The notes beneath the pieces are model-generated. The model was not told the origin of the DNA. It ran no database searches and saw only the letters and a list, made by a program, of their open reading frames with translations. Both the position numbers and the translations under genes were made by a program. From Lysobacterales bacterium (GTDB lineage: Bacteria > Pseudomonadota > Gammaproteobacteria > Xanthomonadales > SZUA-38), in assembly GCA_030065125.1 (NCBI GenBank), contig JASJDM010000030.1, forward strand, positions 1 through 64,000: DNA of 64,000 bases, given 5' to 3'. Numbering within the stretch: the first letter of the stretch is position 1; each line of letters begins with the position of its first letter. This document shows, piece by piece, positions 1 to 32,322 of the stretch.

Positions 1-1317
1 CAGCTCGAGATGATGACCGGAGATCACGAGTACCTGGACTACGCGGTTTTCCTGTATGACGACTACAATCGCCAGCAGGTGCCGGAACAAGACATCAAGG
101 TTGCCAATCTCAATGATCCTGCATACGCATTGGCCGGGCACGCCGTCCACACCTGCGAGCACCTGCGCACCCTGGCCATCGCTGCGCGTCAGGATCCCAG
201 GTACCGCCAGGCCCTGCCGCGTTACCTGGAAAAGCTGAAGACGGTGATCTCACCGAGCGGAGGCCCCATCGGTGACGAATGGATGTACGGTCGCGTGGCG
301 GACTCCGACCGCACCGGATACGAGTACTGCAGTCTGCAGGAGATGCTGCACGGCTATTTGCACCTGCTGCAGGAAACCGGTCAGTCGAGCTGGGCTGATG
401 CCGCTGAACAGCTGTTGTTCAACGCGGCCCAGGGCGCCCGGCATCCTGAAGAAAGCGCTGTCGCCATGACCAAATCGGACTCGTCCTACGTGATGCTGGC
501 GGATCGGAACGCACCGGCTGATTACGCGGGTGATCCGGAGCGGCTGACGTTTGAGGGAAACGCCCGGTACAAGTATTCGCCGACTCACCAGGACGCCGCG
601 GTCTGCTGTGCGCCAAACGCATCGCGGATCTATCCGTACTACGTGCAGTCCATGTGGGCCCATACAGACCAGGGCATTGCCGCCAGCCTTTTCGGCCCCT
701 CGGTCCTCGAGACTCGGGTCCATGGCGTGCCGGTGCGAATTGAACAGAAGACGGACTATCCCTTTGACCTGACCGTCGAACTGGCCGTCGATACGGAAGA
801 GCCGGTGACCTTTCGACTTTCGCTGCGACGCCCGGCTTGGGCCCGAGAGGTCAGGTTGGATGCCAGTGGTCGGCATTCCGAATCCAAGGGTTACACGCAC
901 ATCGATGCCCGGTGGGAAGCCGGTGACACGGTGCGAATCACATTTGTTGCTGAGCCTGAGGTCCACCAGGATCTGTTAGGCAGAGGCTACGTCAGCCTGG
1001 GCCCGCTGGTGTTTGCGCTGCCACTGGCCGGGCGCCCCATCGAGACCCGCCAGTATCCGGTTCCGGGGTTCCGCGATCTGCTGTACGACTATGCAGATGA
1101 TCCGGCGAAGCAATGCTACCGGCTTCCACCGGATCCGTGCTTTGAGGTAGTGACAGGCAGCGGGATCGGTGATCATCCATTCCAGGGTTCGGTGATGATG
1201 CGGGGCGAGCTGATTGATCCAAGTGACGCCAGGCGCAAGCCCGTCACCCTGGTACCTATGGGCGGTACGGTCCTGAGAAAGGTGACCTTCGAGCTTGCCG
1301 GTCAGTGGTTGCGGTAG
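1..1317 (+). CDS. GH127-like beta-L-arabinofuranosidase (DUF1680), 5' truncated by window edge
   Basis: The frame is open through base 1, so only the C-terminal ~438 residues are present; the Met at 10 is not a convincing start. It resembles the GH127/DUF1680 family, retaining glycosidases that release terminal L-arabinofuranose using a zinc-bound cysteine. Counting from the Met at base 10, an E-Y-C motif lies at residues 105-107 and a Cys-Cys pair at 199-200, which match the Glu-x-Cys and Cys-Cys zinc site of the family, the first Cys of the pair being the nucleophile. The downstream beta-rich portion is typical. Its last 16 bases overlap, convergently, the end of the minus-strand URO-D-like gene. 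Family assignment is firm; the sugar specificity is not determinable because many GH127-like subfamilies are uncharacterised. Confidence 0.8.
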   Translation, partial: QLEMMTGDHEYLDYAVFLYDDYNRQQVPEQDIKVANLNDPAYALAGHAVHTCEHLRTLAIAARQDPRYRQALPRYLEKLKTVISPSGGPIGDEWMYGRVADSDRTGYEYCSLQEMLHGYLHLLQETGQSSWADAAEQLLFNAAQGARHPEESAVAMTKSDSSYVMLADRNAPADYAGDPERLTFEGNARYKYSPTHQDAAVCCAPNASRIYPYYVQSMWAHTDQGIAASLFGPSVLETRVHGVPVRIEQKTDYPFDLTVELAVDTEEPVTFRLSLRRPAWAREVRLDASGRHSESKGYTHIDARWEAGDTVRITFVAEPEVHQDLLGRGYVSLGPLVFALPLAGRPIETRQYPVPGFRDLLYDYADDPAKQCYRLPPDPCFEVVTGSGIGDHPFQGSVMMRGELIDPSDARRKPVTLVPMGGTVLRKVTFELAGQWLR

Positions 1318-2390
1318 GGCGCCACGCGCTTTTCAAACTCATCCGCTTGGGCCTCACTCTCGAACCAGGGCATGATATACAGGCCTTCAGGCCCGATGGC
1401 ATCAATCAACGGCTCGACCTCGCCCAGCTGCACGTCCACGACCTGCACGGACTTGCCGGCTTCACGGATGCGCCGGTACATGGGAAACCATTCCGGGTCT
1501 CCGCCCGATGGCACGTTTGGCCCCGGAGTCCATTCGATGGCGTCCAGGGGATCGAGATCGAGCAGCAGGTCCAGGTGGCGGATGGCCTGGGGTCCGTCCA
1601 GGTGATACATGCTGTAATCCAGCCAGTGACACTGGGCCGTCAGCGCGGGGACCACGAACTGCTGGAACATGTCGGTTGAAAACATGGCGGACATGTCGCA
1701 CTGAACCTTGGCGGTCTTGCCGGGCCCCCACAGCCTGAAGGCTTCGAAACAGGCACTGCCATCATCCTGCCTGATGATGTCGTAAACACGGTCATAGCAT
1801 TCGAACCAGGCCTGGTTGATCTCCTCGACCTTTTCGCTGACCCAGCCGGGGCGAATCAGCATGTCCATCAGCAGCTCTTCGGTGCCACGCAGGGAGGCCA
1901 GGGTGTCAACGTTCTCCACCAGGTCGGGGCAGCCGACCAGGTACTTGCCGCGACCCAGTTCGGCACAGGCGCGCAGCGTACGTTCGGTGATTTTCCACCA
2001 GTAGCTGTCGGGGTCGAAGCGCAGCGGTGGGTGGCTCTCGGGATCGGCCGGGTCCATACAGGTCTTGAACCAGACGGTGTCTTGCTCGATGCCGGCTTCA
2101 CTGCCCATGTACAAAGCCAGGGAGCCGGGGCCGATGATGGTTTCCGACACGGGTATGACATCGTGCCTGAAGCTCTGCCGGGAGAGCCGGTAGTGGTTCA
2201 GCCGGGCTCGCCGTTCGGCTTCACGATAGAAGCTTTCCATGTCCCGGGCCTCACCGGGGTTTTCCACGGCCTCGTGGCTTTGGGCCGCCGGCGGAGCGCC
2301 CCAGGTGCACATGACCAGGCCCCGATGATTCCACCAGTCGATGAATCGCTGCTGGGTTTCCTGCCAGTTGGGCTTCCAGGAGAGGGACAT
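1302..2390 (-). CDS. URO-D-superfamily protein lacking methyltransferase zinc ligands
   Basis: A 362-residue member of the uroporphyrinogen decarboxylase (URO-D)-like superfamily, whose TIM-barrel fold covers both haem-pathway decarboxylases and corrinoid:acceptor methyltransferases. The C-terminal half has the characteristic 'YHLDGP' strand (residues 262-267) where MtaA-type enzymes have H-x-C, but the Cys is Asp (265). The second zinc Cys near the C-terminus is absent: the region reads 'GLYIMPWFES' (336-345). A zinc-thiolate methyl-acceptor site is therefore unlikely. It may bind or demethylate a substrate directly, or act as a corrinoid-protein partner; this is inference from the neighbouring corrinoid genes. 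The start at 2390 is the only good Met. It is divergent from the URO-D gene at 2498 and shares its upstream region. Confidence 0.75.
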   Translation of the reverse strand: MSLSWKPNWQETQQRFIDWWNHRGLVMCTWGAPPAAQSHEAVENPGEARDMESFYREAERRARLNHYRLSRQSFRHDVIPVSETIIGPGSLALYMGSEAGIEQDTVWFKTCMDPADPESHPPLRFDPDSYWWKITERTLRACAELGRGKYLVGCPDLVENVDTLASLRGTEELLMDMLIRPGWVSEKVEEINQAWFECYDRVYDIIRQDDGSACFEAFRLWGPGKTAKVQCDMSAMFSTDMFQQFVVPALTAQCHWLDYSMYHLDGPQAIRHLDLLLDLDPLDAIEWTPGPNVPSGGDPEWFPMYRRIREAGKSVQVVDVQLGEVEPLIDAIGPEGLYIMPWFESEAQADEFEKRVAPYRNH

Positions 2391-2401
2391 CGCGTTACCT
2401 T

Positions 2402-2421
2402 TGTCAGTATTTGTGAGTATT
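2402..2421. promoter_or_regulatory. Tandem 10-bp direct repeats between two divergent URO-D genes
   Basis: TGTCAGTATT (2402-2411) is followed directly by TGTGAGTATT (2412-2421): nine of ten bases match and the two are one helical turn apart. They lie in the 107 bp divergent gap between the URO-D-like genes starting at 2390 and 2498. A -35-like TTGTCA (2401-2406) overlaps the first copy for rightward transcription; the matching -10 is weak. The spacing suggests a site for a regulator binding side by side on one DNA face. No regulator gene is next to it, so the binding protein is unknown. Confidence 0.4.
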
Positions 2422-2497
2422 GAAATTTTGCACTGGCCGGTGCCTCATTGAGCCACACCTGTTTCTGTTGCGGCGCCGGCTATTCGAGGACACCAGC

Positions 2498-3517
2498 ATG
2501 TTGGACCGAGTTGAGTTTCGGCAGAACGTAGTGCAGCGCTCTGCCAGCGGCCACCCTCTTTTTCGACCCATCCTGATGCAGTTTGCGGCACACCACGTAG
2601 GCTGCACCTACCGGGATTTCTACCTGGACCACGGGAACCTGGTGAAGGCCAACGTGGCCTGCCTGCGGGACTTCGGCATGGACGCCGTCGGGCTGATTTC
2701 CGACCCGATGCGCGAGGCCGAGGCCTTCGGCGCCGAGTGTCACTACCCGGCAGAAGGCGTTCCCCATTGCAGCGACCCACCGGTAAAGACGCTGGAGGAT
2801 ATCGACGCCCTGGTCACACCGGACGTCATGGCGTCCGAACGCATGCGCGACCGGGTGGACGGTGCCAGGCGCCTGCGGGCCGCAGTTGGTGAAAACGTAC
2901 CCGTCATCGGATGGATCGAGGGGCCGCTGGCCGAGGCCTGCGATCTGGCCGGTGTGACCGACGTGCTTCTGAAGCTGGCAATGGAACCGGAATTCTGTCA
3001 TCGGCTGCTGGCGAAGCTGGTGCCCACTGCAAAGGCATTCGCGGAGGCCCAGGTGCAGGCCGGCTGTGACATCGTGGGCATGGGCGACGCCATCTGCAGT
3101 CAGATTTCGCCCCAGATGTACCAGCAGTTCGTGCAACCGCTGCACCGGGAGATCATCGATTTCATCCATGATCTGGGCGCCCTGGTCAAGGTGCATATCT
3201 GCGGCGACATCACTCACCTGCTGCCCCACCTGCGTGAGGTCGATCCTGACATCGTGGATATCGACCACATGGTGGACATGGAGCACGCCTACGAGGTCCT
3301 GGGTGACGACATCATCCGCTGCGGCAATCTCGACCCGGCCGGGGTGGTGGAGCAGAAGACGGCTGAGGAGGTGGCTTCGCAGACCGAGGCTCTGGTCCGG
3401 CAGGAGCGGGGCCGGCCTTTCATCCTGTCGGCGGGTTGTGAGATCACGCCCCTGACCATGCCGGAGAATCTGCGGGCCATGCGCGAGGCATCCGGCGGAA
3501 GCCTGCACATCAGCTGA
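2498..3517 (+). CDS. Zinc-dependent URO-D-type corrinoid methyltransferase (MtaA/MtbA-like)
   Basis: A 339-residue URO-D-family methyltransferase. The start at 2498 is preceded by a GAGGA ribosome site (2486-2490); an upstream in-frame Met at 2420 would add a non-conserved leader. The zinc motif of methylcobamide:acceptor methyltransferases is complete: H233-I-C235 and C314 in 'SAGCEI'. In MtaA and MtbA these residues hold a zinc that activates the thiol of the methyl acceptor. No HxDG-type haem-pathway signature was noted. It likely moves a methyl group between a corrinoid protein, such as the one at 5843-6508, and an acceptor. Bacteria generally lack coenzyme M, so the acceptor may be tetrahydrofolate or another thiol. 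Its final 8 bases overlap the end of the convergent CobW gene. Confidence 0.82.
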   Translation: MLDRVEFRQNVVQRSASGHPLFRPILMQFAAHHVGCTYRDFYLDHGNLVKANVACLRDFGMDAVGLISDPMREAEAFGAECHYPAEGVPHCSDPPVKTLEDIDALVTPDVMASERMRDRVDGARRLRAAVGENVPVIGWIEGPLAEACDLAGVTDVLLKLAMEPEFCHRLLAKLVPTAKAFAEAQVQAGCDIVGMGDAICSQISPQMYQQFVQPLHREIIDFIHDLGALVKVHICGDITHLLPHLREVDPDIVDIDHMVDMEHAYEVLGDDIIRCGNLDPAGVVEQKTAEEVASQTEALVRQERGRPFILSAGCEITPLTMPENLRAMREASGGSLHIS

Positions 3518-4448
3518 CAAGTTTCTGCTGTTCGGGCTGTGTGCAGGCCTTGAACTTCCTGCGCACCTCACCCGGAGTCAGGTTCCCTCCGAACACGATG
3601 AGCTGGGTCGGACCAACATAGTCCTCGATCTCCCGGATCTCCAGCTCGTCGTAGACGCTGTGGACCGAGACAAACTGGCCGTTGGTCAGCCCCAGGACGC
3701 CCTTGGCGCGGGGGCAATCCGGGCCCAGGGAATGCAGGAATCGCTGCAGGCCCTCCCGGTCGACCCGGTCGTGGGTGCGCAGTACGCAGCTGTTCATGGG
3801 CGGCCGCCCGGCGGGTACCGATCCCTCGTATCGGCGCGCAGCCCGGTGTTCCACCTGGTTGGCCGAGGCCAGGGCCTGCCAGTCGATGTCCACGTAGGTC
3901 GCAGTCTGAATGTGCGCATAGGGATTGAGTTCCCTGAGGCGGTCGGTGATATCGTCAAGATTGCCTTCGAACAGATCCATCTTGTTGATGATGATGGTGT
4001 CGGCCACCATGAGCTGGTGCTTGAATCGCTCCAACGTGCTTAAGCCCCGAAAAAAGTTGGGTGCATCCACCAGGCTGATGATCTGGCCCAGCTCAATTCT
4101 TTTCCCCAGGTTGGGTGCGGACATCAGGTCGATAATGCTGAGGGGGTCGGCCAGGCCGGAGGCTTCAAGGAAGACCATCTCCGGCCGCACCTCGTCCAGC
4201 AGCTTTTCCAGGGTCTGGAGAAAACTGCCCATCTGACAGACGCAGAACACCGACCCGTTGACGATTTCCACCAGGTGAAATCCTTCGTTGCTGCGCTTGA
4301 GGGTCTGACCGTCCACCCCCGTGGGTGCAAACTCGTTCTGGATGACTGCAATCCGGTGCTGCTGGGACAGCTCGCGCAGCAGCCGATCGAGCAGGGTGGT
4401 CTTGCCGCTGCCCAGGAAACCGTTGATCAGGTGAAACGTTGTCGTCAT
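3510..4448 (-). CDS. CobW/G3E-family GTPase, probable metallochaperone of the corrinoid locus
   Basis: A 312-residue G3E GTPase of the CobW/P47K type. Walker A 'GFLGSGKTT' is at residues 10-18 and the guanine-specificity motif NKMD at 155-158, followed by a C-terminal CobW domain. The metal motif, usually CxCC, here reads C69-V-C71-Q, keeping two of three cysteines. Family members deliver zinc or cobalt to client enzymes; beside URO-D methyltransferases the obvious client is the zinc site or the corrinoid, which is inference. Its ATG overlaps the stop of the upstream URO-D-thioredoxin gene (ATGA), indicating translational coupling, and it is the last gene of the minus-strand run. Its stop overlaps the convergent gene's end. 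Confidence 0.85.
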   Translation of the reverse strand: MTTTFHLINGFLGSGKTTLLDRLLRELSQQHRIAVIQNEFAPTGVDGQTLKRSNEGFHLVEIVNGSVFCVCQMGSFLQTLEKLLDEVRPEMVFLEASGLADPLSIIDLMSAPNLGKRIELGQIISLVDAPNFFRGLSTLERFKHQLMVADTIIINKMDLFEGNLDDITDRLRELNPYAHIQTATYVDIDWQALASANQVEHRAARRYEGSVPAGRPPMNSCVLRTHDRVDREGLQRFLHSLGPDCPRAKGVLGLTNGQFVSVHSVYDELEIREIEDYVGPTQLIVFGGNLTPGEVRRKFKACTQPEQQKLVS

Positions 4449-5815
4449 GCGGCACCTTTGGCCTTGGCGGCAAGATGCTCGCCTATTTTCCGCTCGATAT
4501 CGCTAATTGGGGGGATTCTCGACGCGAATTCAATGTCCCCATCCATGACGATGGTTGGCAGGTTACGTACCCCCAGCGCCATCATCATCTGCACCCCTTC
4601 CGTCCGCTTGATGGGGTGCTCCTGGCAAATGACCCGGTCCTCGAAGGGTTCCGCCGCCCGCTGGGCGGCATTGACCATGTACTGGCATGGGGCACAGGAC
4701 GATGAATCCAGGGTGATGACATCGATGACCACTCGGTCCTCGTCCCAGTGCCCGGACAGGTCGGGCAGCTCAATGTCCACGGTCACTGCCTCGGATGCCC
4801 GCAATTCGCCCTGCAGGTCTTCGTCATGGACCAGTTCTGCCACCGCCACCAGGTTTTCCACCGGTGTCGCCATGGCCAGGTCGCAGCCCGGAGCGAGGAC
4901 GAATCCTTTCCGACCGCCCATGTCCATGCACTCCAGGGCGTCACGCCGGCACGTGTCTTCATCACCCAGCAGCAGCGCGACGGTCAGTTTTATGTTGCCG
5001 CCAAAGCTCACGTCGTGGGCCAGGGCGGTGTCGCGTACGAAGTCCAGCGGGATGTTCTCATCGATGGATATGTTGTCGGGTTTTGTCCTGCACATGGCCT
5101 CGATGTTCTGCCGGGCGTTGCCGCAGACAAAAAAGGAACTCAAGGCGCCCGCCTGGCGGATGTCCTGGTTGATCTCCGTCACGTAGGGCGTGACGAAGGT
5201 TTCGAAGCTCATGGGATCGATCTGGCTGGTCATTGGATCGACGACGGCGATCACGTCCGCACCGGCTTCGATATAGCGTTTGGCCATTGACCCGGCCACA
5301 TCCGTCGTGAATCGCAGCAACTGGTGGATTTGTGCAGGGTCCAGCATGATCTGCATGAAGATGTCGGTGCCCATCAGGTGAAGCGCCAGGGTGAACGGGC
5401 CGGTGACCAGCCCGTACAGGGCCAGTTCGGGGTGCTTCTCGCGCAGACGCATGGTCGCCTGCATCACCAGATCGATGCGGCCGTCATCAATGTCGGGTAT
5501 TTTCAGGCAATCGAGCTGCACCCCCTCCAGCAGCGGGTGGGACACCACGGCCGGAGGATTGTCGTCTCCCCACACCAGTTGGCATCCCAGCGCCTCCGCT
5601 TCGATCTGCAGATCGAACACCACCGGGATGCCATCGGGGCTGTAGCGTTCGACGGCCCTGCCTACGCCTCCAACGATGTGGTCCGCCGACTGCAGGTACT
5701 CCCTGGCGGTGATCCCGAGCAACTGCGCGGCGTGTACGCCCACGAAGGGCACCCAGGGAATGCGATCGACCTGTTCCCGGCTGAACGCGCTCCGAATCAG
5801 TTCCCGACCCCTCAT
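4445..5815 (-). CDS. URO-D-type methyltransferase fused to a C-terminal thioredoxin-like domain
   Basis: A 456-residue two-domain protein. Residues ~1-335 form a URO-D/MtaA-like barrel; the zinc region reads F229-V-C231-G with a second Cys at 311 ('APGCDL'), so the usual His ligand is Phe. Residues ~360-456 look like a thioredoxin fold: a C374-A-P-C377 redox motif after a hydrophobic strand and a cis-Pro type 'NLPTIV' segment. The fused dithiol could act as methyl acceptor, reduce the methyltransferase, or deliver electrons to the corrinoid; none of this is established. The start at 5815 has a GGGAGG ribosome site. It lies 27 bp after the corrinoid-protein gene and is coupled (ATGA) to CobW downstream. 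I do not recall a characterised enzyme with this architecture. Confidence 0.82.
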   Translation of the reverse strand: MRGRELIRSAFSREQVDRIPWVPFVGVHAAQLLGITAREYLQSADHIVGGVGRAVERYSPDGIPVVFDLQIEAEALGCQLVWGDDNPPAVVSHPLLEGVQLDCLKIPDIDDGRIDLVMQATMRLREKHPELALYGLVTGPFTLALHLMGTDIFMQIMLDPAQIHQLLRFTTDVAGSMAKRYIEAGADVIAVVDPMTSQIDPMSFETFVTPYVTEINQDIRQAGALSSFFVCGNARQNIEAMCRTKPDNISIDENIPLDFVRDTALAHDVSFGGNIKLTVALLLGDEDTCRRDALECMDMGGRKGFVLAPGCDLAMATPVENLVAVAELVHDEDLQGELRASEAVTVDIELPDLSGHWDEDRVVIDVITLDSSSCAPCQYMVNAAQRAAEPFEDRVICQEHPIKRTEGVQMMMALGVRNLPTIVMDGDIEFASRIPPISDIERKIGEHLAAKAKGAA

Positions 5816-5842
5816 GCCAATTCCTCCCGCGGGTTACCGCCT

Positions 5843-6508
5843 TCAATGCACGCTGTTCAGGAACTCGACGGCGCCTTGCGGGTCCGGCGCGTAGCGGTCG
5901 GCTCCAATCTGTTCGGCAAAGCCCTGGTGGACCGGTGCGCCGCCGATGCAAACGATCTGGGACGGGTCGGCTTGCTTGATTGCCGACACGATCCGCTGCA
6001 TGGCCGGCATGGTTGTGGTGAGCAGACAGGACAGCCCGATCACGCTGTCCGGGTGTTCTCTTGCCGCGTCGATGAAGGTCTCAGCGGTCACGTCCACACC
6101 CAGGTCCACCACCTCGTAGCCGTTGCCCTCGACCATCATGGCAACGAGGTTCTTGCCGATATCGTGCAGGTCGCCCTGGACCGTGCCAATGATGAACGTC
6201 CCCTTGCGCTCGCTGGCGCCGGAGGCGAAGTGCGGCTTCAGGTGCTCCATGGCCGCGCTCATGGCGCGCGCGCTCATCAGTACCTGGGGTACAAATATGA
6301 TGTTGTCGCGGAAGGCCTGGCCGACTTTGTCCATGCCGGCCATGAGACCCTGCTCGAGGATCTGGTCCACGGTCATGCCGGTGTCCAGGGCCTGCCGGGT
6401 GAGTTCGTCCGCGCCGTCCTGGCCGGACATTTCAGGCGGGTAGGGCGAAGCCCTGTCGATTTTGCCGGCTTTAATACAGTCGGCGATTTGCTGCAGTAGG
6501 TCGCTCAT
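5843..6508 (-). CDS. B12-binding corrinoid protein (MtaC/MtbC-like methyl carrier)
   Basis: A 221-residue corrinoid protein with the standard two parts: a helical cap (B12-binding_2, residues ~1-90) and a Rossmann-like cobalamin domain (~100-221). The base-off/His-on signature is D113-L-H115-D-I-G118; His115 would be the lower cobalt ligand, and 'SCLLTTTM' and 'GGAPV' segments follow as in the family. It shuttles methyl groups between a substrate methyltransferase and a URO-D-type methyltransferase in the cytoplasm. I chose the ATG at 6508; a GTG at 6523 is the alternative and lies inside the GGAGG ribosome site. The 112 bp gap to the upstream RACE gene contains TATACT, so an extra promoter is possible. 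Confidence 0.9.
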   Translation of the reverse strand: MSDLLQQIADCIKAGKIDRASPYPPEMSGQDGADELTRQALDTGMTVDQILEQGLMAGMDKVGQAFRDNIIFVPQVLMSARAMSAAMEHLKPHFASGASERKGTFIIGTVQGDLHDIGKNLVAMMVEGNGYEVVDLGVDVTAETFIDAAREHPDSVIGLSCLLTTTMPAMQRIVSAIKQADPSQIVCIGGAPVHQGFAEQIGADRYAPDPQGAVEFLNSVH

Positions 6509-6620
6509 GACGCATTCCCACACCTCCGCCCGGGAGGCCCATCACGTCAGGGATTTGCTGTACGGCCAGTATAGAATCGCGGCTGGAGAAAATCCTCCGT
6601 ATCCATATCAGGAACACTAC

Positions 6621-8651
6621 CTAGCTGTTGGGCAGACCGCGCGGTTGATAGACCTGGTTTGCCCGGGTCGCCTGGCGACCGGGAAGCTGAACAGACTTCG
6701 CCAGTTCGTCGAAGCTGTCGGTCTGGTGGGGCAATGCCATTGCCGCCACAAAATACTCCTTGAACTGCTCGGCGGCCGCGGTTTCGATCTTTTCAATCCG
6801 GCGAACCTGAGCCTCGATCAGGGCCCTCGATGAGCGGTCCAGCAAGGCAATCCGGGCCCCCGTGCCAGCGGCATTGCCCGCCGACGAGACCTTGTCCAGA
6901 TCGCAGTCAGGAATCATGCCCAGGACCATGGCGTGCTTACCGTCGATGTGGGATCCAAATGCACCGGCCAGCCGGATGCGATCCACTTTCCCGACCCCAA
7001 GTCGGTCCATGAGGAGGCGCACGCCTGCATACAGCGCCGCCTTGGCCAGCTGAATCGCGCGTACGTCGCCCTGGCTGATCCGGATGCCGGGGCTGCCCTC
7101 GGACAGGACATAAGCCCATGTTGGCCCGTCCGCCACGATGCGCGGCGACCCGGAATCCGCCGACTCTCGAATCGTGCCATCCGGGTCGAGGATGCCGGCA
7201 AGGTACATCTCAGCCACGACCTCGATCATGCCGGAGCCGCAGATTCCGGTAACGCCGATATCAGACGCCCGCTCGGAAAACGCCGGATCGTCGGACCAGA
7301 GGTCGCAGCCGATGACCTTGAATCTGGGCTCCAGGGTATTCGGGTCGATTCGAACGCGCTCAATGGCGCCGGGTGCGGCCCGCTGACCCGAACTGATCTG
7401 CGCACCCTCAAACGCGGGCCCGGTGGGACTCGAGGCAGCCAGCAGCCTGCTGCGGTTGCCCAGGACAATTTCCGCGTTGGTGCCGACGTCCACGATGAGC
7501 GAGACGGCATCAAGATCGAACGGCGCCTCCGCCAGCAGCACCGCGGCAGTGTCGGCGCCCACGTGTCCAGCAATACACGGCAACGCGTAGACATGGGCAC
7601 CCCGGTTGACCTGGATGCCGATGTCCGCCGCCGGCAGGTCCATGGCAGCATCACTGGCAAGGGTAAATGGCGCCACCCCCAGCTCAACGGGGCTGATGCC
7701 CATGACCAGGTGATGCATGCTGGGGTTTCCGACCAGGGTGAGCTCCAGCACATCGACCCGTTCAACTCCTGCCTGACGGGTCACCAGGGTGACCAACTCG
7801 TTGATCGCGCGTCTCACCGTGTCAGTCAGGACCTTCTCGCCTTCCGGGTTCATCATGGCATAGGAGACCCGGCTCATCAGGTCTTCACCAAACCGGATCT
7901 GGGGGTTCATCAGTCCCGCGCTGGCCAGGACCTCACCGGTAGTCAGGTCACACAGGGATGCGGCCATGGTGGCAGATCCAACGTCCACAGCGATGCCATA
8001 GGGACGCTCTTTCAATCCAGGCCAGATGGCGATGATCTGATTGCTGTTGCGAACGGCGACGGTCACCCGCCACTCACCGGTGCGTAACACTGATTGCAGG
8101 TCCTGCAGCACACCGAATGCGCAACCATGGACGTCCAGGCCCCAGTCGGCTTTCAGGGTCTGCTGCAACCGCTGCAGATCACCGCTGGGAGCAGCCAGGA
8201 CTGGTGCTGGCACCTCCAGGTAGTAGAAACGCACAACCGGGTCAATCCGGATGTCGTGGGCCTCGTCCGGCTTTCGCACCACGTGGCGATGGACCTGGGA
8301 TTCGGCTGGAACGTCGATCACCACGTCCGCCTGCAGGGTGGCCTGGCAGCCCAGCCGATGCCCGTCCGCCACAGTACCCCTGAGTTGTAATTTCTGTTCT
8401 GCCTCGCCCTGGACGGAAAGGCTGGCTGCACGGGAGACGATGTTGTGCTTGCTGAATTCACCCTCGGACACCATCACCTGGCACCGGCTGCAAAGGGCGC
8501 GACCACCGCAAACAGAATCAAGATCGACACCCAGGCTGCGCGCCGCAGCCAGGACCGGGGTGCCGACAGGGAAGCGGCCTCGCTTGCCCGATGGGGTAAA
8601 CACCACGCGCACCTGGCCCTGGCGCTCCCCGCTCATGGGGCTTGACCGCAT
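6621..8651 (-). CDS. RACE protein: 2Fe-2S/ASKHA ATP-dependent corrinoid activator (DUF4445)
   Basis: A ~676-residue reductive activator of corrinoid enzymes. The N-terminus is a plant-type ferredoxin domain with C48-x5-C54-x2-C57 and a fourth Cys at ~102, followed by a linker and an ASKHA-type ATPase body with 'IAVDVGSAT' and 'IVDVGTNAEI' phosphate loops. Such proteins use ATP and reduced ferredoxin to return accidentally oxidised Co(II) corrinoid to active Co(I). Several starts are possible; the ATG at 8651 lies 4 bp after the upstream DUF1638 stop, has a GGTGA-like ribosome site, and begins just ahead of the ferredoxin domain, while the farther Met at 8744 would overlap DUF1638 by ~90 bp. 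It fits the corrinoid protein 112 bp downstream. Confidence 0.88.
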   Translation of the reverse strand: MRSSPMSGERQGQVRVVFTPSGKRGRFPVGTPVLAAARSLGVDLDSVCGGRALCSRCQVMVSEGEFSKHNIVSRAASLSVQGEAEQKLQLRGTVADGHRLGCQATLQADVVIDVPAESQVHRHVVRKPDEAHDIRIDPVVRFYYLEVPAPVLAAPSGDLQRLQQTLKADWGLDVHGCAFGVLQDLQSVLRTGEWRVTVAVRNSNQIIAIWPGLKERPYGIAVDVGSATMAASLCDLTTGEVLASAGLMNPQIRFGEDLMSRVSYAMMNPEGEKVLTDTVRRAINELVTLVTRQAGVERVDVLELTLVGNPSMHHLVMGISPVELGVAPFTLASDAAMDLPAADIGIQVNRGAHVYALPCIAGHVGADTAAVLLAEAPFDLDAVSLIVDVGTNAEIVLGNRSRLLAASSPTGPAFEGAQISSGQRAAPGAIERVRIDPNTLEPRFKVIGCDLWSDDPAFSERASDIGVTGICGSGMIEVVAEMYLAGILDPDGTIRESADSGSPRIVADGPTWAYVLSEGSPGIRISQGDVRAIQLAKAALYAGVRLLMDRLGVGKVDRIRLAGAFGSHIDGKHAMVLGMIPDCDLDKVSSAGNAAGTGARIALLDRSSRALIEAQVRRIEKIETAAAEQFKEYFVAAMALPHQTDSFDELAKSVQLPGRQATRANQVYQPRGLPNS

Positions 8652-8655
8652 GACG

Positions 8656-9294
8656 TCACCCGCCAACCGATTCCTCCAGTTGCCTGGCCAGGCCTCCGGG
8701 CCCGGTGTGGCGGTGTTCGAAAGCCAGGCCGAGAAAAGCGGCATGTTGCCTGGCCAGTGCCTGCAGCTCTGTGGACTCGGACTGTGACAGATACACCACT
8801 CTTCTGTAGTTGCCGAAAAAGTCAGGCATCAGCGTCGGGTCTTTATCCAGGCCCAACCCCCGGACGACCAGGCGGTCAAAGTGGCGAGTCAGAAAATCCG
8901 TGAGATAGAACGTACCGGGCTCCCCCTCGGCCAGCTGATTGAACGCCATCGATCCAGCAAACACCTCGTAGCAATGCGCACCCGCTAATCGCTCTACCCC
9001 AAAGCCCTCCAGCAACTCATCGATCCTGCCGGCGGTGCCACAGTCAGCAAAGGCGACGAATATGTGTTCAAACTCCCGCTGTTTGTCCTCGATTTCTCTT
9101 CGCAGAGCCTCGGTTATCTTCTCCGGACGGTTGTGCAGGCTGGGCGGCAGGCACTGTATTTTCAGATGATGCCAGTGGTTGCGTTTTTTCAGCGCCACGA
9201 GTTCATGCGCCAGGGCGCCGCAGGCAATGACGCAGACACCGGTGAGACCGGGTTCTGTGGTCGTTACCCTGTTACCATCGTCCATTGGACTCAC
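8656..9294 (-). CDS. DUF1638 domain protein of the corrinoid locus
   Basis: A ~212-residue cytoplasmic protein matching DUF1638: 'VIACGALAHEL' at the N-terminus, 'FVAFADCGTAGRID' mid-protein and 'LPPSLHNRPEKI' between them. From general knowledge this domain often accompanies corrinoid-dependent methyltransferase genes, but its biochemistry is unknown. Conserved Cys, His and Glu residues in 'ADCG' and 'AGAHCYEVFAGS' could bind a metal or cofactor, which is speculative. The start is either a GTG at 9294, overlapping the upstream stop as GTGA, or an ATG at 9285; both are served by the same GAGG. It is followed after 4 bp by the RACE gene, so it is almost certainly co-transcribed. Confidence 0.8.
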   Translation of the reverse strand: MSPMDDGNRVTTTEPGLTGVCVIACGALAHELVALKKRNHWHHLKIQCLPPSLHNRPEKITEALRREIEDKQREFEHIFVAFADCGTAGRIDELLEGFGVERLAGAHCYEVFAGSMAFNQLAEGEPGTFYLTDFLTRHFDRLVVRGLGLDKDPTLMPDFFGNYRRVVYLSQSESTELQALARQHAAFLGLAFEHRHTGPGGLARQLEESVGG

Positions 9295-9995
9295 GCCTCG
9301 CCCAGGGGTTTACTCCATGCGGCTCTGGCGGATTCCCTGGCGCTGGTCTCGATCAGATCACCGTGAGAAAGGACGATCCTGTCAAAATCCCACTGGAGGA
9401 TTTTTTCCAGGGACCGACGTGCAGCCGCCTTGTCTTTCCATCCCATCTGGTACTCCGGGGCCGGCTTGGGGTTGTCCCACATGTGAAAAACCGCCTTCCA
9501 CCAGAGCTTCAACAGCCAGTTGACGTTTTGGCTCTGGTCGGTGAAGTTTTCGATCAGATCCACCAGTACCAGCGTCCTGGTCGGCTTGTGAAGCATGGCC
9601 ACTTCCCAGATGTACTTATTGCCGCGGACCAGGACCTGGTCCAGGGTCTGTTCCCATGCATCCGGGGGCCTGTCGCCCAGAATCCAGTCAAAATCAATGT
9701 CCGGGCGCTTTCTTTCAACGCCGGGGCAGATGTAGGTTTCGGCCTCCGGAAAGGCGGCCTGGGCAGACGGGATGTGGAAATAGTGGTATGAGCCCGGCGC
9801 AACGATGTATCTCACGTCGCCCAGGTCCGATATGGCCGCCCTGGTGCCGCCGTCGATCTCGCATGGTGAGTGGAGCATCAGTTCCGTTTCCGAGACCCTG
9901 ATGACAGACATGCGGGCATTGAAGTCGCAGCCCGCGTAGTGGATGGGGTACTCCTGCACCCAGATCTCACCGGGCACGAATTCAGTCAGCGCCAT
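9291..9995 (-). CDS. DUF4336 domain protein (metallo-beta-lactamase-like fold)
   Basis: A 234-residue protein resembling DUF4336, a domain of metallo-beta-lactamase ancestry: 'YIVAPGSYHYFHI' resembles the region around metal-binding histidines and 'DRIVLSHGDLIE' the C-terminal Ser-His-Gly-Asp segment. Only some of the canonical HxHxDH ligands are visible, so whether it is a hydrolase is uncertain. There is no signal peptide. A strong GGAGGAAT ribosome site precedes the ATG at 9995. It lies 31 bp after the ketopantoate-reductase-like gene and overlaps DUF1638 downstream. Its place in the corrinoid run suggests release, activation or detoxification of the unknown substrate; that is inference. 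Confidence 0.72.
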   Translation of the reverse strand: MALTEFVPGEIWVQEYPIHYAGCDFNARMSVIRVSETELMLHSPCEIDGGTRAAISDLGDVRYIVAPGSYHYFHIPSAQAAFPEAETYICPGVERKRPDIDFDWILGDRPPDAWEQTLDQVLVRGNKYIWEVAMLHKPTRTLVLVDLIENFTDQSQNVNWLLKLWWKAVFHMWDNPKPAPEYQMGWKDKAAARRSLEKILQWDFDRIVLSHGDLIETSARESARAAWSKPLGEA

Positions 9996-10026
9996 GGTAT
10001 TCCTCCTGTGCCCGAGACAGCATTCA

Positions 10027-10959
10027 TCAAATCCATTCCAGCGCCTGGCGCAGGTCAGGTCCGGCCTCTGCCCCGGCGAGTTTCAGCAGGTCAGCGGCAA
10101 AGCCGCGCATCTCATCCCGGGCATTGGCGGCGTGGGCGGCCAGGGCAGTGCGTCCGAAATCGCTGCGCAGCAGGCCGGCGATCCGGCTCGCCCCCATGCC
10201 CGCGGGTATCCAGCGCATCAGGTTCAGGCCCCGAGGCAGGATGGGAAAACCCGCCTGCCTAATAGCGGTGAGGCCCTGGGCGGTGGCGCGCATCACCTGT
10301 TTCAAAAGTCTGCGATCTGAAGTTGCCACGTCCAGGTTGCTGTCGTGGTGGTACACGGCGGCGGCCAGGGGCAGAACCAGTCCGATGTGGCACCAGTGCC
10401 ACGCCATGATGGGCACGTGGCGTTCAATGTTCATTCCCAAAGGCTCCAGGTGTTCCTGCACGGCCGTGGCGGCAGCAGCGGCATCGGCGTGGGCCTCACC
10501 AACAATCAGCCGGTCGAAGGGTTTTTGTCGGGGTTTTTCACGATCGGCGAATACCAGTTCATCACCCTCCCAGAAGCCGCCAACTCCTGGAAAGCCGCCC
10601 AACACGCGGTCGCTTCCCAGTTGATCCATGGCCGCTTCGTATCCCCGGGTGGTGTTGCCCAGAAACCATATCGCTGGATTGCCAGGAAGGTCCTGGAGTT
10701 GCGGCATCAGCGATTCGCGCTGGGTGGCCTGAACACAAACCATGGCGACATCGAAGGTGTCCTCGACAGGAGCGCGAACAATATTGAGAGCTGCGGTGGC
10801 GCGCTCATTGCTGATGGCGTCGCGCATCAGCAGTCCGCGTTGCTCGAGCCGGTCGGCTTTGTCACCGCGGGCAAGCAGCGTGACATCAGCGCCTTTCCCG
10901 GACAGGCGCGCTGCCGTGAAGCAGCCCGTCACACCGGCGCCGATAATAAGGAATTTCAT
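10027..10959 (-). CDS. Ketopantoate reductase family oxidoreductase (PanE/ApbA-like)
   Basis: A ~310-residue NAD(P)H-dependent reductase with an N-terminal Rossmann motif 'IIGAGVTGCFTAARLSGKG' and the ApbA C-terminal helical domain. PanE reduces 2-dehydropantoate to pantoate, but the family also includes octopine- and other 2-oxoacid or opine-type dehydrogenases. The canonical catalytic Lys region could not be placed with certainty; 'HVPIMAWHWCHIGLVLPLAAA' sits where 'K...N...NA' is expected in PanE, so the substrate is probably different. The ATG at 10959 begins directly at the Rossmann strand; an upstream start at 10992 adds 11 unlikely residues. It is first in the minus-strand corrinoid run and may process the demethylated product. 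Confidence 0.75.
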   Translation of the reverse strand: MKFLIIGAGVTGCFTAARLSGKGADVTLLARGDKADRLEQRGLLMRDAISNERATAALNIVRAPVEDTFDVAMVCVQATQRESLMPQLQDLPGNPAIWFLGNTTRGYEAAMDQLGSDRVLGGFPGVGGFWEGDELVFADREKPRQKPFDRLIVGEAHADAAAAATAVQEHLEPLGMNIERHVPIMAWHWCHIGLVLPLAAAVYHHDSNLDVATSDRRLLKQVMRATAQGLTAIRQAGFPILPRGLNLMRWIPAGMGASRIAGLLRSDFGRTALAAHAANARDEMRGFAADLLKLAGAEAGPDLRQALEWI

Positions 10960-11136
10960 TGGTCTGGACGGCGCCTTCAGCGGAGCCACCATGACAAAAA
11001 CCCCCGGATTAGCTGAGATTGCTCCTGATCTTGGGGCAAATCGGCCGGGAGTGAATAAGGGAAAACCGGATTGTGTGCCGGCCCGAGGGCATCGTGGCGT
11101 TGTTTTGCCTGTGCGGGGCGGGAATTGCCGGAGGGG

Positions 11137-11538
11137 TCATTGGCTGGCGCCAAGCAATTTGTCTGGCAGCAGAAACTGCCGCCGTGCCCTGGCGGAGGTG
11201 AGACGCTCCCGGGTATACCAGGCACCAAGTACGTCTGTATCCAACAGGTCCGGATTGGCTCGAAGGAATGACTCGAGTCCGGCGCCTTCGGTGTGGTCTC
11301 TGCGTTCCGCGATCAAGCTCATGAAGGCAAAGGTGATAGTGGTATTGAATTTTTCCGGCACGCCGACTTGCTCCGCCATGGCGCGAATGGTTGCTGCGTA
11401 GCGCGAGCAGGCTTCTACGAAGTCGTACTTTTCCAGCATGGCATAAGCGACCTGGACATGCTCCGCGTGATGAAAATCGGGTGCGGGAATCTCGAGTCGT
11501 TCGAATCGTTCCAGCAGATTGCCGTGGGTACTATTCAT
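11137..11538 (-). CDS. Uncharacterised helical protein paired with a small putative DNA-binding protein
   Basis: A ~133-residue, mostly helical cytoplasmic protein. It contains 'FHHAEHVQVAYAMLEKYDF' followed by 'KFNTTITFAFMSLIAER', a recurrent bacterial pattern (H..EHV..A.. then K...TIT.A...LIAER) that I recognise but cannot name functionally. The regularly spaced His, Glu and Arg residues could bind a ligand or metal. Its ATG at 11538 overlaps the stop of the upstream small gene by 8 bp, so the two are translated together. The neighbour looks like a DNA-binding protein, so this may be a sensor or partner; a toxin-antitoxin relation is possible but not supported by any known toxin motif. Confidence 0.6.
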   Translation of the reverse strand: MNSTHGNLLERFERLEIPAPDFHHAEHVQVAYAMLEKYDFVEACSRYAATIRAMAEQVGVPEKFNTTITFAFMSLIAERRDHTEGAGLESFLRANPDLLDTDVLGAWYTRERLTSARARRQFLLPDKLLGASQ

Positions 11539-11788
11539 CGGTTTGTGCCTCCTCCAGTCTGTGGCTGTCCTCTGCGACCAGGTCCAGCCCGTAGACTTCC
11601 TTGAGCAGCGCAATCTTGCGCAGGGTTTCCTCCTGGAACGGGGTTTTCCCTTCGAAACAATGCAGGGCCATGCCCTCCAGCAGGTCGCCCAGCGACATGT
11701 CCAGCTGCTCGGCCAGGGCTTTCAGGACCTTCAACAGGCGTTTTTCGATGCGCACGCCGGTCTGAACGCGTTGGATTGACTTGCTCAT
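11531..11788 (-). CDS. Small putative ribbon-helix-helix-like protein
   Basis: An 85-residue protein starting 'MSKSIQRVQTGVRIEKRLLKVLKALAEQL', in which a basic, strand-prone segment ('VQTGVRIEKRLLK') precedes two helices ('LLKVLKALAEQLDMS', 'LGDLLEGMALHCFEG'). That order is typical of ribbon-helix-helix DNA-binding proteins. The C-terminal half ('EETLRKIALLKEVYGLDL') is helical and may mediate dimerisation or contact with the partner protein encoded immediately downstream. The start at 11788 is the Met at the fold boundary; a farther one at 11830 would read through the GGTACC repeats. Autoregulation through those repeats is plausible. No database search was possible, so the fold call is pattern-based. 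Confidence 0.6.
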   Translation of the reverse strand: MSKSIQRVQTGVRIEKRLLKVLKALAEQLDMSLGDLLEGMALHCFEGKTPFQEETLRKIALLKEVYGLDLVAEDSHRLEEAQTDE

Positions 11789-12126
11789 TGTTGTTATTTT
11801 GGTACCAAGGTACCCATATGTCAACAGCAAAACGGACGCGCGGAGTTGTTCCGCGTCCAGATTTAACGGCTGGGATGTTCAGTCCGGCCTGTCACCGGTT
11901 CCCGGCGCCGAGTCAATCTATTCACGACACCACGCCGGTCGCGCGGCCGCCGCAGCCTTCTCGGACTTGGACACGGACTGGGAATAATTCCAGTTAGCGG
12001 CATAGCCACCATCATCGCAGTCATCGGATAGCGCCCACCTCCCCGGTACCGATCGGAATCCGCGTATTCAGCACCTCCGAATTCGGTGGCATGTTGGATG
12101 GGTGGGAACCTTGGGAGGCCCGGAAC
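11789..12126. other. 338 bp divergent intergenic region
   Basis: No gene is visible. Besides the GGTACC pair, there is a bulged hairpin at 11834-11858 (GGACG-CG-CGGA pairing with TCCG-CGTCC, 5-nt loop) without a following T run, so it is not a clear terminator. The segment 11860-12100 has no convincing ORF with a ribosome site, repeats or RNA structure that I can support. It presumably carries the promoters of the minus-strand pair and of the plus-strand membrane gene. Confidence 0.4.
11799..11815 (-). promoter_or_regulatory. Double GGTACC candidate operator upstream of the RHH-like gene
   Basis: The sequence TTGGTACCAAGGTACCC holds two copies of the self-complementary hexamer GGTACC, at 11801-11806 and 11809-11814, 8 bp apart, the first inside the 10 bp palindrome TTGGTACCAA. 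It begins 11 bp upstream of the ATG at 11788. Short spaced palindromes of this kind are typical operators for ribbon-helix-helix repressors, so autoregulation is a reasonable guess. Another GGTACC occurs at 12045-12050 without a partner. Confidence 0.4.
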
Positions 12127-12576
12127 ATGCAGCCATCATGGGTGACCTGGGCGCTGGTCATTTTTGGCGTGGTAACCCTGGTCCCGCTGATAGCGGCGCA
12201 ATGGGCCATGCTGCTGCAACCGGACCGTCAGAAAACCCGGGAACTGCTCATTGGCAAGGGGGAAGACTGGCGGGACCAGACCCATTTCAGGCTGTCGCTG
12301 GGCGCCGCCTGGGCGGATTGGTTGTTTTTTGGCCCGCTTTTTGTGCTCGGCAGCGCCGGCGTGCTGATTGGCCATGGGTGGGGATACGTGCTGTTTGGGG
12401 CGGCCGGGGCGTGCAGCCTCTATATCAATATCATTCTCTGGTTTACCGAGAAAGAGTACGTTTACCCCAGCCGTGGGCCGCTCAGGTACTACACCTATTA
12501 CTGGGGATTCTTCGTCTTGTGGGGCGCACTGGCCCTGGCGTACTCCGCGATGCGGATCGCTGGCGCAGGGCTGTAA
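12127..12576 (+). CDS. Small integral membrane protein, unknown function
   Basis: A 149-residue protein with four predicted membrane segments: roughly residues 6-26 ('WALVIFGVVTLVPLIAAQW'), 60-80 ('WADWLFFGPLFVLGSAGVLIG'), 82-103 and 125-145. A soluble stretch with Arg, Lys and Glu ('LLIGKGEDWRDQTHFRLS') separates the first two. The ATG at 12127 follows a GGGAGG ribosome site; the in-frame ATG at 12091 lacks one. I do not recognise the family. It stands alone: the next gene starts 78 bp downstream in the same direction and encodes an unrelated glycosyltransferase fusion, so co-transcription is possible but uninformative. Confidence 0.65.
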   Translation: MQPSWVTWALVIFGVVTLVPLIAAQWAMLLQPDRQKTRELLIGKGEDWRDQTHFRLSLGAAWADWLFFGPLFVLGSAGVLIGHGWGYVLFGAAGACSLYINIILWFTEKEYVYPSRGPLRYYTYYWGFFVLWGALALAYSAMRIAGAGL

Positions 12577-12654
12577 TCTCCTTCGAATGTTGAGCTGATT
12601 CCTGCAGTGGTAACATCTCGGTCCCCGCCACCGTCGCGCGCCCATCCATACTGA

Positions 12655-14982
12655 ATGACCGAAGGCCTCGCCAGTCAGTCCACCCAGAGCCTTCAGCAGT
12701 TCCTGCAGGAAGTGGGTTGCTCACTGCTGGTCTCCACCTACCAGGCCGGCAAGATCGTGCTGGTGCGGGCCCAGGCCCAGGGCGTCAACACCCACTTTGT
12801 CAATTTTGGAAAGCCCATGGGCATGGCCTGGCGAGATGGACAGCTGGCCGTGGGCGGCGCCGCCCAGGTGGTGACCTATCGCAACCTGCCGGCGGTAGGG
12901 CCCAGGACCGACCAGGGTCAGCCCGCCGACGCCTGCTACCTGCCACGGCAGGTCCACAATACCGGCGCCATTGATATCCACGAGATGGGTTATGACGCAG
13001 AAGGCCGGCTGTGGTTCATCAATACCCGCATGTCCTGCCTGGCCACGGCCGAAGTGGATTTCAGCTTCACGCCACGGTGGCGGCCTCCGTTTATCACCGA
13101 GTATGACCTGACCGACCGCTGCCATCTCAATGGCCTGGGATTCCGCGACGGGCGCCCCCGCTACGTGTCCATGCTGGGCGCTACCGATACGCCGGGCGGC
13201 TGGCGCAAGAACAAGGTATCCGGCGGTCAGATCATGGATGTCAGCAACAACGAGGTCCTGGCCGCCAGCCTGTGCATGCCACACTCGCCAAGGTGGCATG
13301 AAGGCAGGCTTTGGTTCCTGTCATCCGGCGCCGGCCAGCTGATGTGTACTGTTCCCGGGGACTCGCCCCAGGTGGTGGCGGAGGTGCCGGGTTTTGCCCG
13401 CGGGCTGAGTTTCGTTGGCCGCTACGCGCTGATCGGACTGTCCCAGGTGCGGGAAAGCGCGGTGTTTGCAGGTTTGCCGCTGACCCGGCGGGTGACCCAG
13501 CGCAAGAGCGGCGTCTGGGTGGTAGACACCACCACCGGGCAAACCGTTGCCTTCCTGGAGTTCACCGGATCAGTGCAGGAAGTCTTCGAGGTGCTGGTGG
13601 TGCCCCATCGCTGGCCGGTCATGCTGGATGCCGACGACCCGCTGGTGGCAACGTCCTATGAATTGCCCAATGAAGTAATCCAGAACCTGGCGCCGCCGGA
13701 CCCGGTGCAGGAGTCCCTGGACGAAGCCACTCGCCTGCACGTGTCCGGTAAGGTTGGGGAAGCCATCCAGGGATACCGCCAGATCCTGCAGCAGCATACC
13801 GGCCACCCGGTGGCGGCCTACCAGCTGGGTCTGGCACTGGTGGACCACGAGCAGTGGGCCGAGGCGGTGGAGCAGCTGGAGGGTGTGGTCCAGGACCAGC
13901 CGGACAACGCCGAAGCCATGAACAGTCTGGGCCTGGCCCACGCCCGGCTGGGACGGCTGGACACCGCCATCGACTGGTTCGACCGGTCTATTGCGACCGA
14001 CGGCCAGTACGCACAGGCTCATTTCAACCGCGGCCTGATTCTGCTCAAGCAGGGTCGCTACGCCGAGGGCTGGGAGGGATACGACTGGCGCTGGCAGACG
14101 CCCCAATTCGTGCCGTTCCAGTGCAGCCAGCCCCAGTGGGGCGGGGAAGACATCAGCAACAAGCGTCTTCTCGTGCACAGCGAGCAGGGCAACGGCGACC
14201 AGGTGCAGTTCGCCCGCTTCCTGCCCATGGCCGCTGAGCGCTGCAGGGAGCTGATCTACGTGGGCCCGGAATCCCTGGCGCCGCTGATTGCCGAGATCGA
14301 GGGCGTGGCCGAAAGCCGGCTCCCCGGACAGATCCCCGCTGATCGCTTCGATGTTTACTGTCCGCTGATGAGCCTGACCCGCTGTCTAGGCATTACCATG
14401 GACAACCTGCCGGCGCCAGAGCGTTACCTGACCGTCCCGCCCCAGGTGACGGTCAGCCAGCTGCGGGGCCAGAAACAGGGAGACCTCATGGTGGGCATCA
14501 GCTGGGCGGGATCACCCACCCAGCGTGATGACCGGCATCGTTCCATGGCGCTGGACACCCTGATCCCACTGCTCGACCTGCCGGGCGTATCATTCTTCAG
14601 CCTGCAGATGCCCGTCAGCGCTGAGGAGCGGGAACGGCTCAACCGCCTCGGTGTCCAGGACCTGGAGCCGGAGCTGCCGGGCTATGCCCGGACTGCGGCA
14701 CTGATGGATCAGCTGGATGCCGTCATTTCGGTGTGCACGGCCACCGCCCACGTGGCTGCCGCCCTGGGCAAACCCACTGCCATCCTGCTCCCCCACGACC
14801 CGGACTGGCGCTGGCTGCTGGACGGGACAACGTCACCCTGGTATCCGACCGCAACCCTGATCCGGCAATCCGAGCCCGGCGACTGGAAACCGGTGTTGGA
14901 GCGGGCCCGGACCTGGCTGTCCGGACTTGCTGCGGAGTCAACCGCAGCCACCAATCGCTCCGCGACACCGCCATCATGCTGA
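12655..14982 (+). CDS. TIGR03032-TPR-glycosyltransferase (GT9-like) fusion
   Basis: A 775-residue three-part protein. Residues ~10-345 match TIGR03032, a conserved domain of unknown function ('LLVSTYQAGKIVLVR', 'GMAWRDGQLAVG', 'IDIHEMGYDAEGRLWFINT', 'CHLNGLGFRDGRPRYVSMLG', 'SPRWHEGRLWFLSSGAG'). Residues ~355-495 hold tetratricopeptide repeats ('AEAMNSLGLAHARLGRLDTA', 'AQAHFNRGLILLKQGRYAEG'). Residues ~500-765 resemble the C-terminal half of TPR-linked ADP-heptosyltransferase-like (GT9-type) enzymes ('VGISWAGSPTQRDDRHRSM', 'VISVCTATAHVAAALGKPT'). There is no signal peptide. TIGR03032 and TPR-glycosyltransferase modules usually occur as separate proteins, and their fusion suggests surface glycan or glycoprotein work. 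The substrate is unknown, and nearby surface proteins are only circumstantial. Confidence 0.8.
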   Translation: MTEGLASQSTQSLQQFLQEVGCSLLVSTYQAGKIVLVRAQAQGVNTHFVNFGKPMGMAWRDGQLAVGGAAQVVTYRNLPAVGPRTDQGQPADACYLPRQVHNTGAIDIHEMGYDAEGRLWFINTRMSCLATAEVDFSFTPRWRPPFITEYDLTDRCHLNGLGFRDGRPRYVSMLGATDTPGGWRKNKVSGGQIMDVSNNEVLAASLCMPHSPRWHEGRLWFLSSGAGQLMCTVPGDSPQVVAEVPGFARGLSFVGRYALIGLSQVRESAVFAGLPLTRRVTQRKSGVWVVDTTTGQTVAFLEFTGSVQEVFEVLVVPHRWPVMLDADDPLVATSYELPNEVIQNLAPPDPVQESLDEATRLHVSGKVGEAIQGYRQILQQHTGHPVAAYQLGLALVDHEQWAEAVEQLEGVVQDQPDNAEAMNSLGLAHARLGRLDTAIDWFDRSIATDGQYAQAHFNRGLILLKQGRYAEGWEGYDWRWQTPQFVPFQCSQPQWGGEDISNKRLLVHSEQGNGDQVQFARFLPMAAERCRELIYVGPESLAPLIAEIEGVAESRLPGQIPADRFDVYCPLMSLTRCLGITMDNLPAPERYLTVPPQVTVSQLRGQKQGDLMVGISWAGSPTQRDDRHRSMALDTLIPLLDLPGVSFFSLQMPVSAEERERLNRLGVQDLEPELPGYARTAALMDQLDAVISVCTATAHVAAALGKPTAILLPHDPDWRWLLDGTTSPWYPTATLIRQSEPGDWKPVLERARTWLSGLAAESTAATNRSATPPSC

Positions 14983-15125
14983 ATCAATCCCGGATCGGGG
15001 TCCGGCACATGGTTCAGGATGACGGAAGAAGGAAGAACAGGCCTGGGACATGGAGAACACGTGACATCCCCTACACGAATCATTCACTATGCTCGCCCTC
15101 CATTTGAACAGGCTGAGTGCCCGGC

Positions 15126-16706: not shown

Positions 16707-16853
16707 TTGGAGTCGCGGCGGTCGCTGATGAAGTGCTGGCCATCGCCCAGCCGAGGTGCTCGAAGTTCCGGACGCCGGACATTACAAGATGCACACGAGA
16801 TCGTGATTCCGGCACTGTTGAAGCACCTAAAAAACTAGTTTGGCGGTCGACCC

Positions 16854-16996
16854 TCAGGGCGTTGGCCGGCTCAACTCGTAACTTTCGTCAAGCCACTGGG
16901 TCCAGCGTTTTTCAGGCATGGGCTGTTCGGAGGAAAACCGTGCTGTGATCCAGACCCCGGAGCCCACCTGGTAGTCATCGGGGTGTTGCTTTAAAA
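16854..16996 (-). pseudogene. C-terminal gene remnant, MmcQ/YjbR-like
   Basis: Reading leftward from ~16996 to a TGA at 16854-16856, one frame encodes a coherent protein tail including 'HPDDYQVGSGVWITARF' and 'RWTQWLDESYEL'. It has no start codon or upstream continuation, because the preceding sequence belongs in another frame to the short secreted gene at 16991-17269. The '...VGSGVWI...W+DESY-L' pattern resembles the C-terminus of MmcQ/YjbR-family DNA-binding proteins. This is a tentative match by eye. A deletion or rearrangement joining two genes near the G6/T5 homopolymers at 16991-17005 would explain it. Confidence 0.4.
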
Positions 16997-32297: not shown

Positions 32298-32322
32298 ATT
32301 ATTATCGGCCGGCAACGCATTA

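Follow-up and report, generated by a model that had tools for sequence, protein, structure and literature searches.

The start of a 64,000-nt window of contig JASJDM010000030.1 (Lysobacterales bacterium, GCA_030065125.1) carries a gene cluster that is read here, with moderate confidence, as a corrinoid-dependent demethylase, the core mechanism of which would pass the methyl group to a thiol and not to folate. Genes were identified from open reading frames (ORFs) together with Pfam, NCBIfam and PDB searches. The proposal in the initial annotation that corrinoid-dependent methyl transfer is run here by UroD proteins instead of by MttB is well supported, and nearly all of the genes that it listed were recovered with ORFs and Pfam. 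Most of the corrinoid methyltransferases known to be of the UroD type are from anaerobes, and the methyl groups that they move go to folate or coenzyme M.

Seven genes form a minus-strand run from 10992 down to 3510, in the order ketopantoate-reductase-like enzyme, DUF4336, DUF1638, RACE, corrinoid protein, UroD protein with a C-terminal thioredoxin domain (UroD-Trx) and CobW. They overlap by 4 nt or are separated by gaps of up to about 30 nt, with the exception of 112 nt between the RACE and corrinoid protein genes. The overlapping genes that had been described in this run are two pairs, CobW/UroD-Trx and DUF1638/DUF4336, and RACE starts 4 nt beyond the DUF1638 stop. The corrinoid protein (5843-6508) consists of a B12-binding cap and Rossmann domain (PF02310 and PF02607) with the DLHDIG motif. 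The RACE-type ASKHA activase (6621-8651) has every domain expected of such a protein, that is Fer2 (2Fe-2S) and the RACo linker, middle and ASKHA C-terminal domains. For both proteins Pfam agrees with the description first given. DUF1638 (8656-9294, Pfam) is the putative reactivation partner of RACE, and the CobW-family GTPase (3510-4448; PF02492, 134 bits) is a putative metal chaperone for a zinc site or for the corrinoid.

Three UroD proteins had been proposed, and two of them are clear. UroD-Trx (4445-5815; PF01208, 209 bits) combines a UroD/MtaA-fold methyltransferase with a thioredoxin domain that has a CAPC motif. The second protein (2498-3517; Pfam UroD, 214 bits) is encoded on the plus strand, tail to tail with CobW. 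The third (1302-2390), called the YHLDG protein after its motif, has no Pfam, NCBIfam or PDB match. The barrel of UroD-Trx is well modelled, and the first of the PDB chains matched is MtaA of Methanosarcina mazei (4ay8 and 4ay7), with a template modelling (TM) score of 0.89 and an E value of 4e-19 against 4ay7. Identity of the two clear proteins to MtaA (residues 21-340, used for identities and trees) is marginal, 25.9% over 286 and 27.7% over 311 residues. Both stayed far under the NCBIfam cut-offs of the MtaA, MtbA and CmuA equivalogs, with best scores of 172.5 bits (cut-off 244) and 146.5 bits (cut-off 235.4). Judged from these comparisons, both proteins appear to be MtaA-like, as in mlp gene clusters, and not to come from glycine-betaine clusters.

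The metal-binding motifs of the two proteins differ. The 2498-3517 protein has the intact His-Cys-Cys (HxC...C) motif of S-methyltransferases, VHICG...AGC, at the positions of HICG and GC in MtaA. In UroD-Trx this motif is incomplete, with the histidine replaced by phenylalanine (FFVCG...PGC, Phe-x-Cys...Cys), and the same replacement is found in a relative from Subdoligranulum variabile. The thioredoxin domain matched PF13192 with an E value of 6e-4 and 20.3 bits, under the cut-off of 24.8, and its top NCBIfam match was the HUIPC (seleno)protein model, also under the cut-off.

The UroD tree was weakly resolved. Its references were MtaA, CmuA and a comparison cluster from Acetoanaerobium, and MecC/MecE, OdmB, MtvB, CdmB and Mlp1-3 were left out. 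UroD-Trx grouped with the Subdoligranulum relative alone (support 100/99), apart from the Acetoanaerobium proteins, and the 2498-3517 protein was unplaced. Neither clear UroD protein was placed with MtaA, CmuA or the Acetoanaerobium cluster; against these references, the grouping within a described pathway that the initial annotation had named as refuting its proposal was not seen.

The activation genes have another origin. RACE is 64% identical to the activase of a Chromatiales cluster (L001; clade support 99/98), 61-64% identical to RACE of glycine-betaine clusters and only 28% identical to the RACE of locus L089. DUF1638 is 55% and up to 59% identical to its counterparts in MttB/glycine-betaine-type clusters, and the 30 DUF1638 loci in genomes of the same class, including that of the window, are mostly MttB-type clusters. 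By sequence, RACE and DUF1638 appear to derive from glycine-betaine (MttB-type) clusters. The Chromatiales cluster contains a corrinoid protein, DUF1638, a small VF protein, a pterin methyltransferase, RACE, an MTHFR-like protein and two MttB proteins, and a similar gene set adjoins glycine-betaine transporters in Azoarcus KH32C. The two proteins are a described corrinoid-reactivation pair; Phaeobacter requires both for methionine synthesis, as proposed B12 reactivators (PMC5764234), and in Ruegeria both go up on N-osmolytes (PMC12478193). The corrinoid protein of the window formed a long branch in a weakly resolved tree.

Aerobic glycine-betaine clusters (MtgB/MttB; PMC12478193; Azoarcus KH32C) thus share with the locus a corrinoid protein, DUF1638 and a highly similar RACE, but their MttB/MtgB, MtgA, MTHFR-like and VF genes are missing here and UroD genes are found instead. 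The locus could on these grounds be what is left of a glycine-betaine or split methionine-synthase module after reorganisation and loss of MttB, serving only MetH, which is present in the genome, or other B12 enzymes, with the UroD proteins as bystanders. This is improbable, as every frame is open, the genes are tightly packed with that of UroD-Trx, and the corrinoid protein/UroD-Trx pair recurs in a genome of the class Clostridia. A sensory function, with a UroD receptor that signals the presence of a methylated compound by methylating the corrinoid protein, has a parallel in loci of the same class that join a corrinoid protein, UroD and DUF1638 with histidine kinases or diguanylate cyclases. 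The DUF1638 and RACE of the window fall, however, in the other, metabolic branch, and neither the cluster nor its immediate surroundings yielded a kinase, response regulator or GGDEF gene, which makes this the least credible of the alternatives.

The partners that usually accompany such systems are missing from the genome. MttB, which the initial annotation had stated to be absent, was not found with PF06253 in the whole genome (94.8% complete); MtaB was not searched for. The only pterin-binding proteins are FolP (C44) and MetH (C118), with no other pterin-binding methyltransferase, and the usual folate acceptor enzyme is therefore lacking. Since the assembly has no counterpart of the second methyltransferase by which betaine, mec and cdm systems load folate, a thiol acceptor used by a UroD protein, or else MetH, would be the likely methyl sink. 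The genome encodes two haem-copper oxidases, which fits the aerobic host supposed from the start.

Under the demethylase reading, a UroD-fold methyltransferase would hold the substrate, and Co(I) on the corrinoid protein would accept its methyl group. The carrier, then in the methyl-Co(III) form, would give the group to a thiol bound to another UroD protein at a zinc site rich in cysteine, in all likelihood that of the 2498-3517 protein; methylcorrinoid:thiol transfer, an acceptor activity of the coenzyme M type, is predicted for this protein from its motif. RACE and DUF1638 would reduce the carrier after its oxidation to Co(II), for which the need would be greater in an aerobe. CobW may supply zinc or cobalt, and the fused thioredoxin domain may protect either the cysteines of the zinc site or the thiol acceptor from oxidation.

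The thiol acceptor separates this scheme from that of OdmB, MtvB and CdmB (PMC13222342). In these, as proposed here, the methyl donor is attacked by a UroD-fold protein itself, which works with a corrinoid protein encoded separately, but the methyl group goes to tetrahydrofolate via a second methyltransferase that is absent here. Dehalogenation of a haloalkane or other small molecule, as by mec, cmu or cdm, would share several parts with the locus. The mec dichloromethane cassette (PMC9768040, PMC10344839) likewise has three UroD proteins, the third being uncertain here, a corrinoid protein and reactivation proteins, and the zinc-free CdmB (PMC13222342) would suit the phenylalanine replacement in UroD-Trx. 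Such a function is nevertheless highly improbable. The genome has no pterin-binding second methyltransferase (MecF or CdmA), the run has no mec-like two-component system or transporter, and the corrinoid domain, fused in CmuA, is a separate protein in the window.

Among the closest described arrangements is the type 1 mlp gene cluster of UroD, corrinoid protein and RACE (Kountz and Balskus, PMC10418091). Salvage of methyl-sulphur or methyl-selenium compounds in the manner of mlp is accordingly a possible function, if an unlikely one. The locus agrees with the mlp definition in having two MtaA-like proteins (25.9% and 27.7%), a single corrinoid protein, RACE and no tetrahydrofolate methylase, and both the number of components and the gene spacing (at most 2 kb) conform. 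No tetrahydrofolate methylase lies within 20 kb, the left side being unseen because the contig begins at base 1. SelD in the genome (431 bits), the HUIPC (seleno)protein model as the nearest to the thioredoxin domain, although under the cut-off, and CobW in the comparable Acetoanaerobium cluster point in the same direction. The mlp clusters are, in contrast, transcribed in a single direction, which is not kept here as the 2498-3517 gene is on the plus strand and divergent from the rest on the minus strand. The His-Cys-Cys zinc site is invariant in Mlps, several Mlp1 excepted, whereas one UroD protein of the window is fused to thioredoxin and lacks the histidine. A type 1 cluster also encodes an Mlp2 and an Mlp3, a point on which the weakly resolved tree shows UroD-Trx apart from the Acetoanaerobium proteins. 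Every mlp genus is obligately anaerobic (PMC10418091), unlike this oxidase-bearing genome, and DUF1638, DUF4336, the ketopantoate-reductase-like enzyme and a betaine-type RACE, only 28% identical to that of L089, are further differences.

The complete gene set was found in no other genome. UroD-Trx was represented by the copy of the window alone among the Pseudomonadota genomes surveyed (299 of the same order, 398 of the same phylum and 369 of the same class, in overlapping draws); other phyla were covered through plasmid records only. One close relative was found, in Subdoligranulum variabile of the class Clostridia (L038), with 42% identity over the full length. The order there is corrinoid protein (C-terminus only, at the edge of the record), UroD-Trx, a radical SAM protein and CobW. 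Because this order includes the same partners, UroD-Trx is tied to the carrier and to CobW. The two loci share the UroD-Trx fusion, the FFVCG motif, the adjoining corrinoid protein and a nearby CobW; they differ in the intervening radical SAM gene, in the lack of DUF1638 and RACE in the stretch read of Subdoligranulum, and in its Clostridia host. Conservation as a unit, on which the initial annotation had made its proposal depend, was accordingly found for the corrinoid protein, UroD-Trx and CobW but not for the whole set. The RACE protein occurs in one of four genomes of the host family, this one, and is absent from the other three. The gene set looks rare and possibly acquired. All loci returned by a DUF1638-anchored scan of genome contigs were without UroD proteins.

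Seven other loci (L078, L079, L082, L083, L084, L085 and L088) have a corrinoid protein and UroD, in some cases with DUF1638, and their neighbours include histidine kinases, response regulators or a diguanylate cyclase. In L083 DUF1638 is fused to a PAS-histidine kinase. The UroD zinc motifs of these sensor-type loci are degenerate where examined, and the loci possibly serve methyl-corrinoid sensing.

The YHLDG protein (1302-2390, minus strand) is a putative third methyltransferase and possibly a very distant relative of UroD. With hhalign it aligned collinearly with three O-type UroD proteins of other loci at 61% probability, and its pairwise scores exceeded those of all 300 shuffles for two of the five UroD proteins tried. 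The YHLDG stretch aligns where MtaA has HICG. The UroD profile, on the other hand, scored the protein no better than shuffled copies. The fold model was poor (mean predicted local distance difference test score, pLDDT, 43.5), with a better C-terminal half that resembles half a beta/alpha barrel. The model gave no significant Foldseek match, and UroD structures were absent among the VIA-align matches listed. No relatives were found in the 398 genomes of the phylum, in plasmids or in viral contigs.

As to the substrate, the tentative suggestion is a carbohydrate with O-methyl groups on which the YHLDG protein would act, with the product processed by the glycosidase, the ketopantoate-reductase-like enzyme and DUF4336. 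We lean slightly towards a carbohydrate over a methyl-sulphur or methyl-selenium compound. The more specific proposal is rather doubtful: that the YHLDG protein represents a new class of methyltransferase, loading the carrier from an O-methyl carbohydrate in an oxygen-respiring bacterium, and that the UroD proteins, one of which includes a thioredoxin domain and has no histidine in its metal site, hand the methyl group on to a thiol and not to folate. The GH127-like glycosidase gene (10-1317, plus strand, Pfam) is a neighbour possibly belonging to the pathway, and lacks its N-terminal half because the contig begins at base 1. The ketopantoate-reductase-like NAD(P) enzyme (10027-10992; PF02558) is the first gene of the run, and DUF4336 (9291-9995, Pfam), which we take to be metallo-beta-lactamase-like, is a generic family. 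These three would fit the carbohydrate reading, and none is evidence alone.

A methylated sugar had been guessed from the glycosidase neighbour. UroD/corrinoid clusters do adjoin carbohydrate genes at four other loci, which supports the guess indirectly; for the locus of the window itself it is no more than a possibility. On a Gemmatirosa kalamazoonensis plasmid (L104, 1-13485) GH2, SDR and mannonate dehydratase genes share one stretch with UroD, a corrinoid protein (45% identity), RACE, a protein of an unknown family and a homocysteine S-methyltransferase, an arrangement suggestive of a uronate being O-demethylated and homocysteine receiving the methyl group. In Peptoclostridium acidaminophilum (L092, 1314-9616) a sugar ABC transporter and a DUF4091 gene are followed immediately by a corrinoid protein, UroD and a 213-amino-acid protein with no NCBIfam match. 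Glycosidases and a rhamnosidase are found near UroD genes in Subdoligranulum. No corrinoid route for O-methyl sugars was found in the literature searched.

Several points weigh against demethylation with a thiol acceptor as proposed. The UroD identity of the YHLDG protein is unproven, and UroD-Trx, judged from its motif, may bind no zinc as it lacks the histidine. With the assembly at 95% completeness, in 138 contigs, the missing methyltransferase could be unsequenced, and MetH could be the enzyme that accepts the methyl group. The GH127 gene, encoded on the other strand, may have nothing to do with the cluster, and the ketopantoate-reductase-like enzyme and DUF4336 come from broad families of many roles.

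The locus had been put forward as an undescribed system. Clusters of UroD, corrinoid protein and RACE have been described (PMC10418091, PMC9768040), as has the combination of RACE and DUF1638 (PMC5764234), and the claim has to be qualified to that extent. As no gene for transfer of the methyl group to folate was found, the demethylation route may be a new one. By combining betaine-type with mlp/mec-type parts the locus is a hybrid of known kinds rather than categorically new. Betaine-type reactivation together with oxidases, and without a folate acceptor enzyme, would show corrinoid chemistry under air, and the role of DUF1638 would become testable beyond methionine and betaine metabolism. Should the link to carbohydrates be real, the cluster would provide an enzyme for O-methyl sugars.

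No Rfam families, and hence no cobalamin riboswitch, were found in bases 1-20000, and promoter- and terminator-like counts were at chance level or below. Elsewhere in the window, a DUF4915 domain fused to TPR repeats (12655-14982) adjoins an AbgT-type transporter (15117-16706), and a protein of 3170 residues (22803-32315) contains ten SdrD B-like domains and a C25 peptidase domain.

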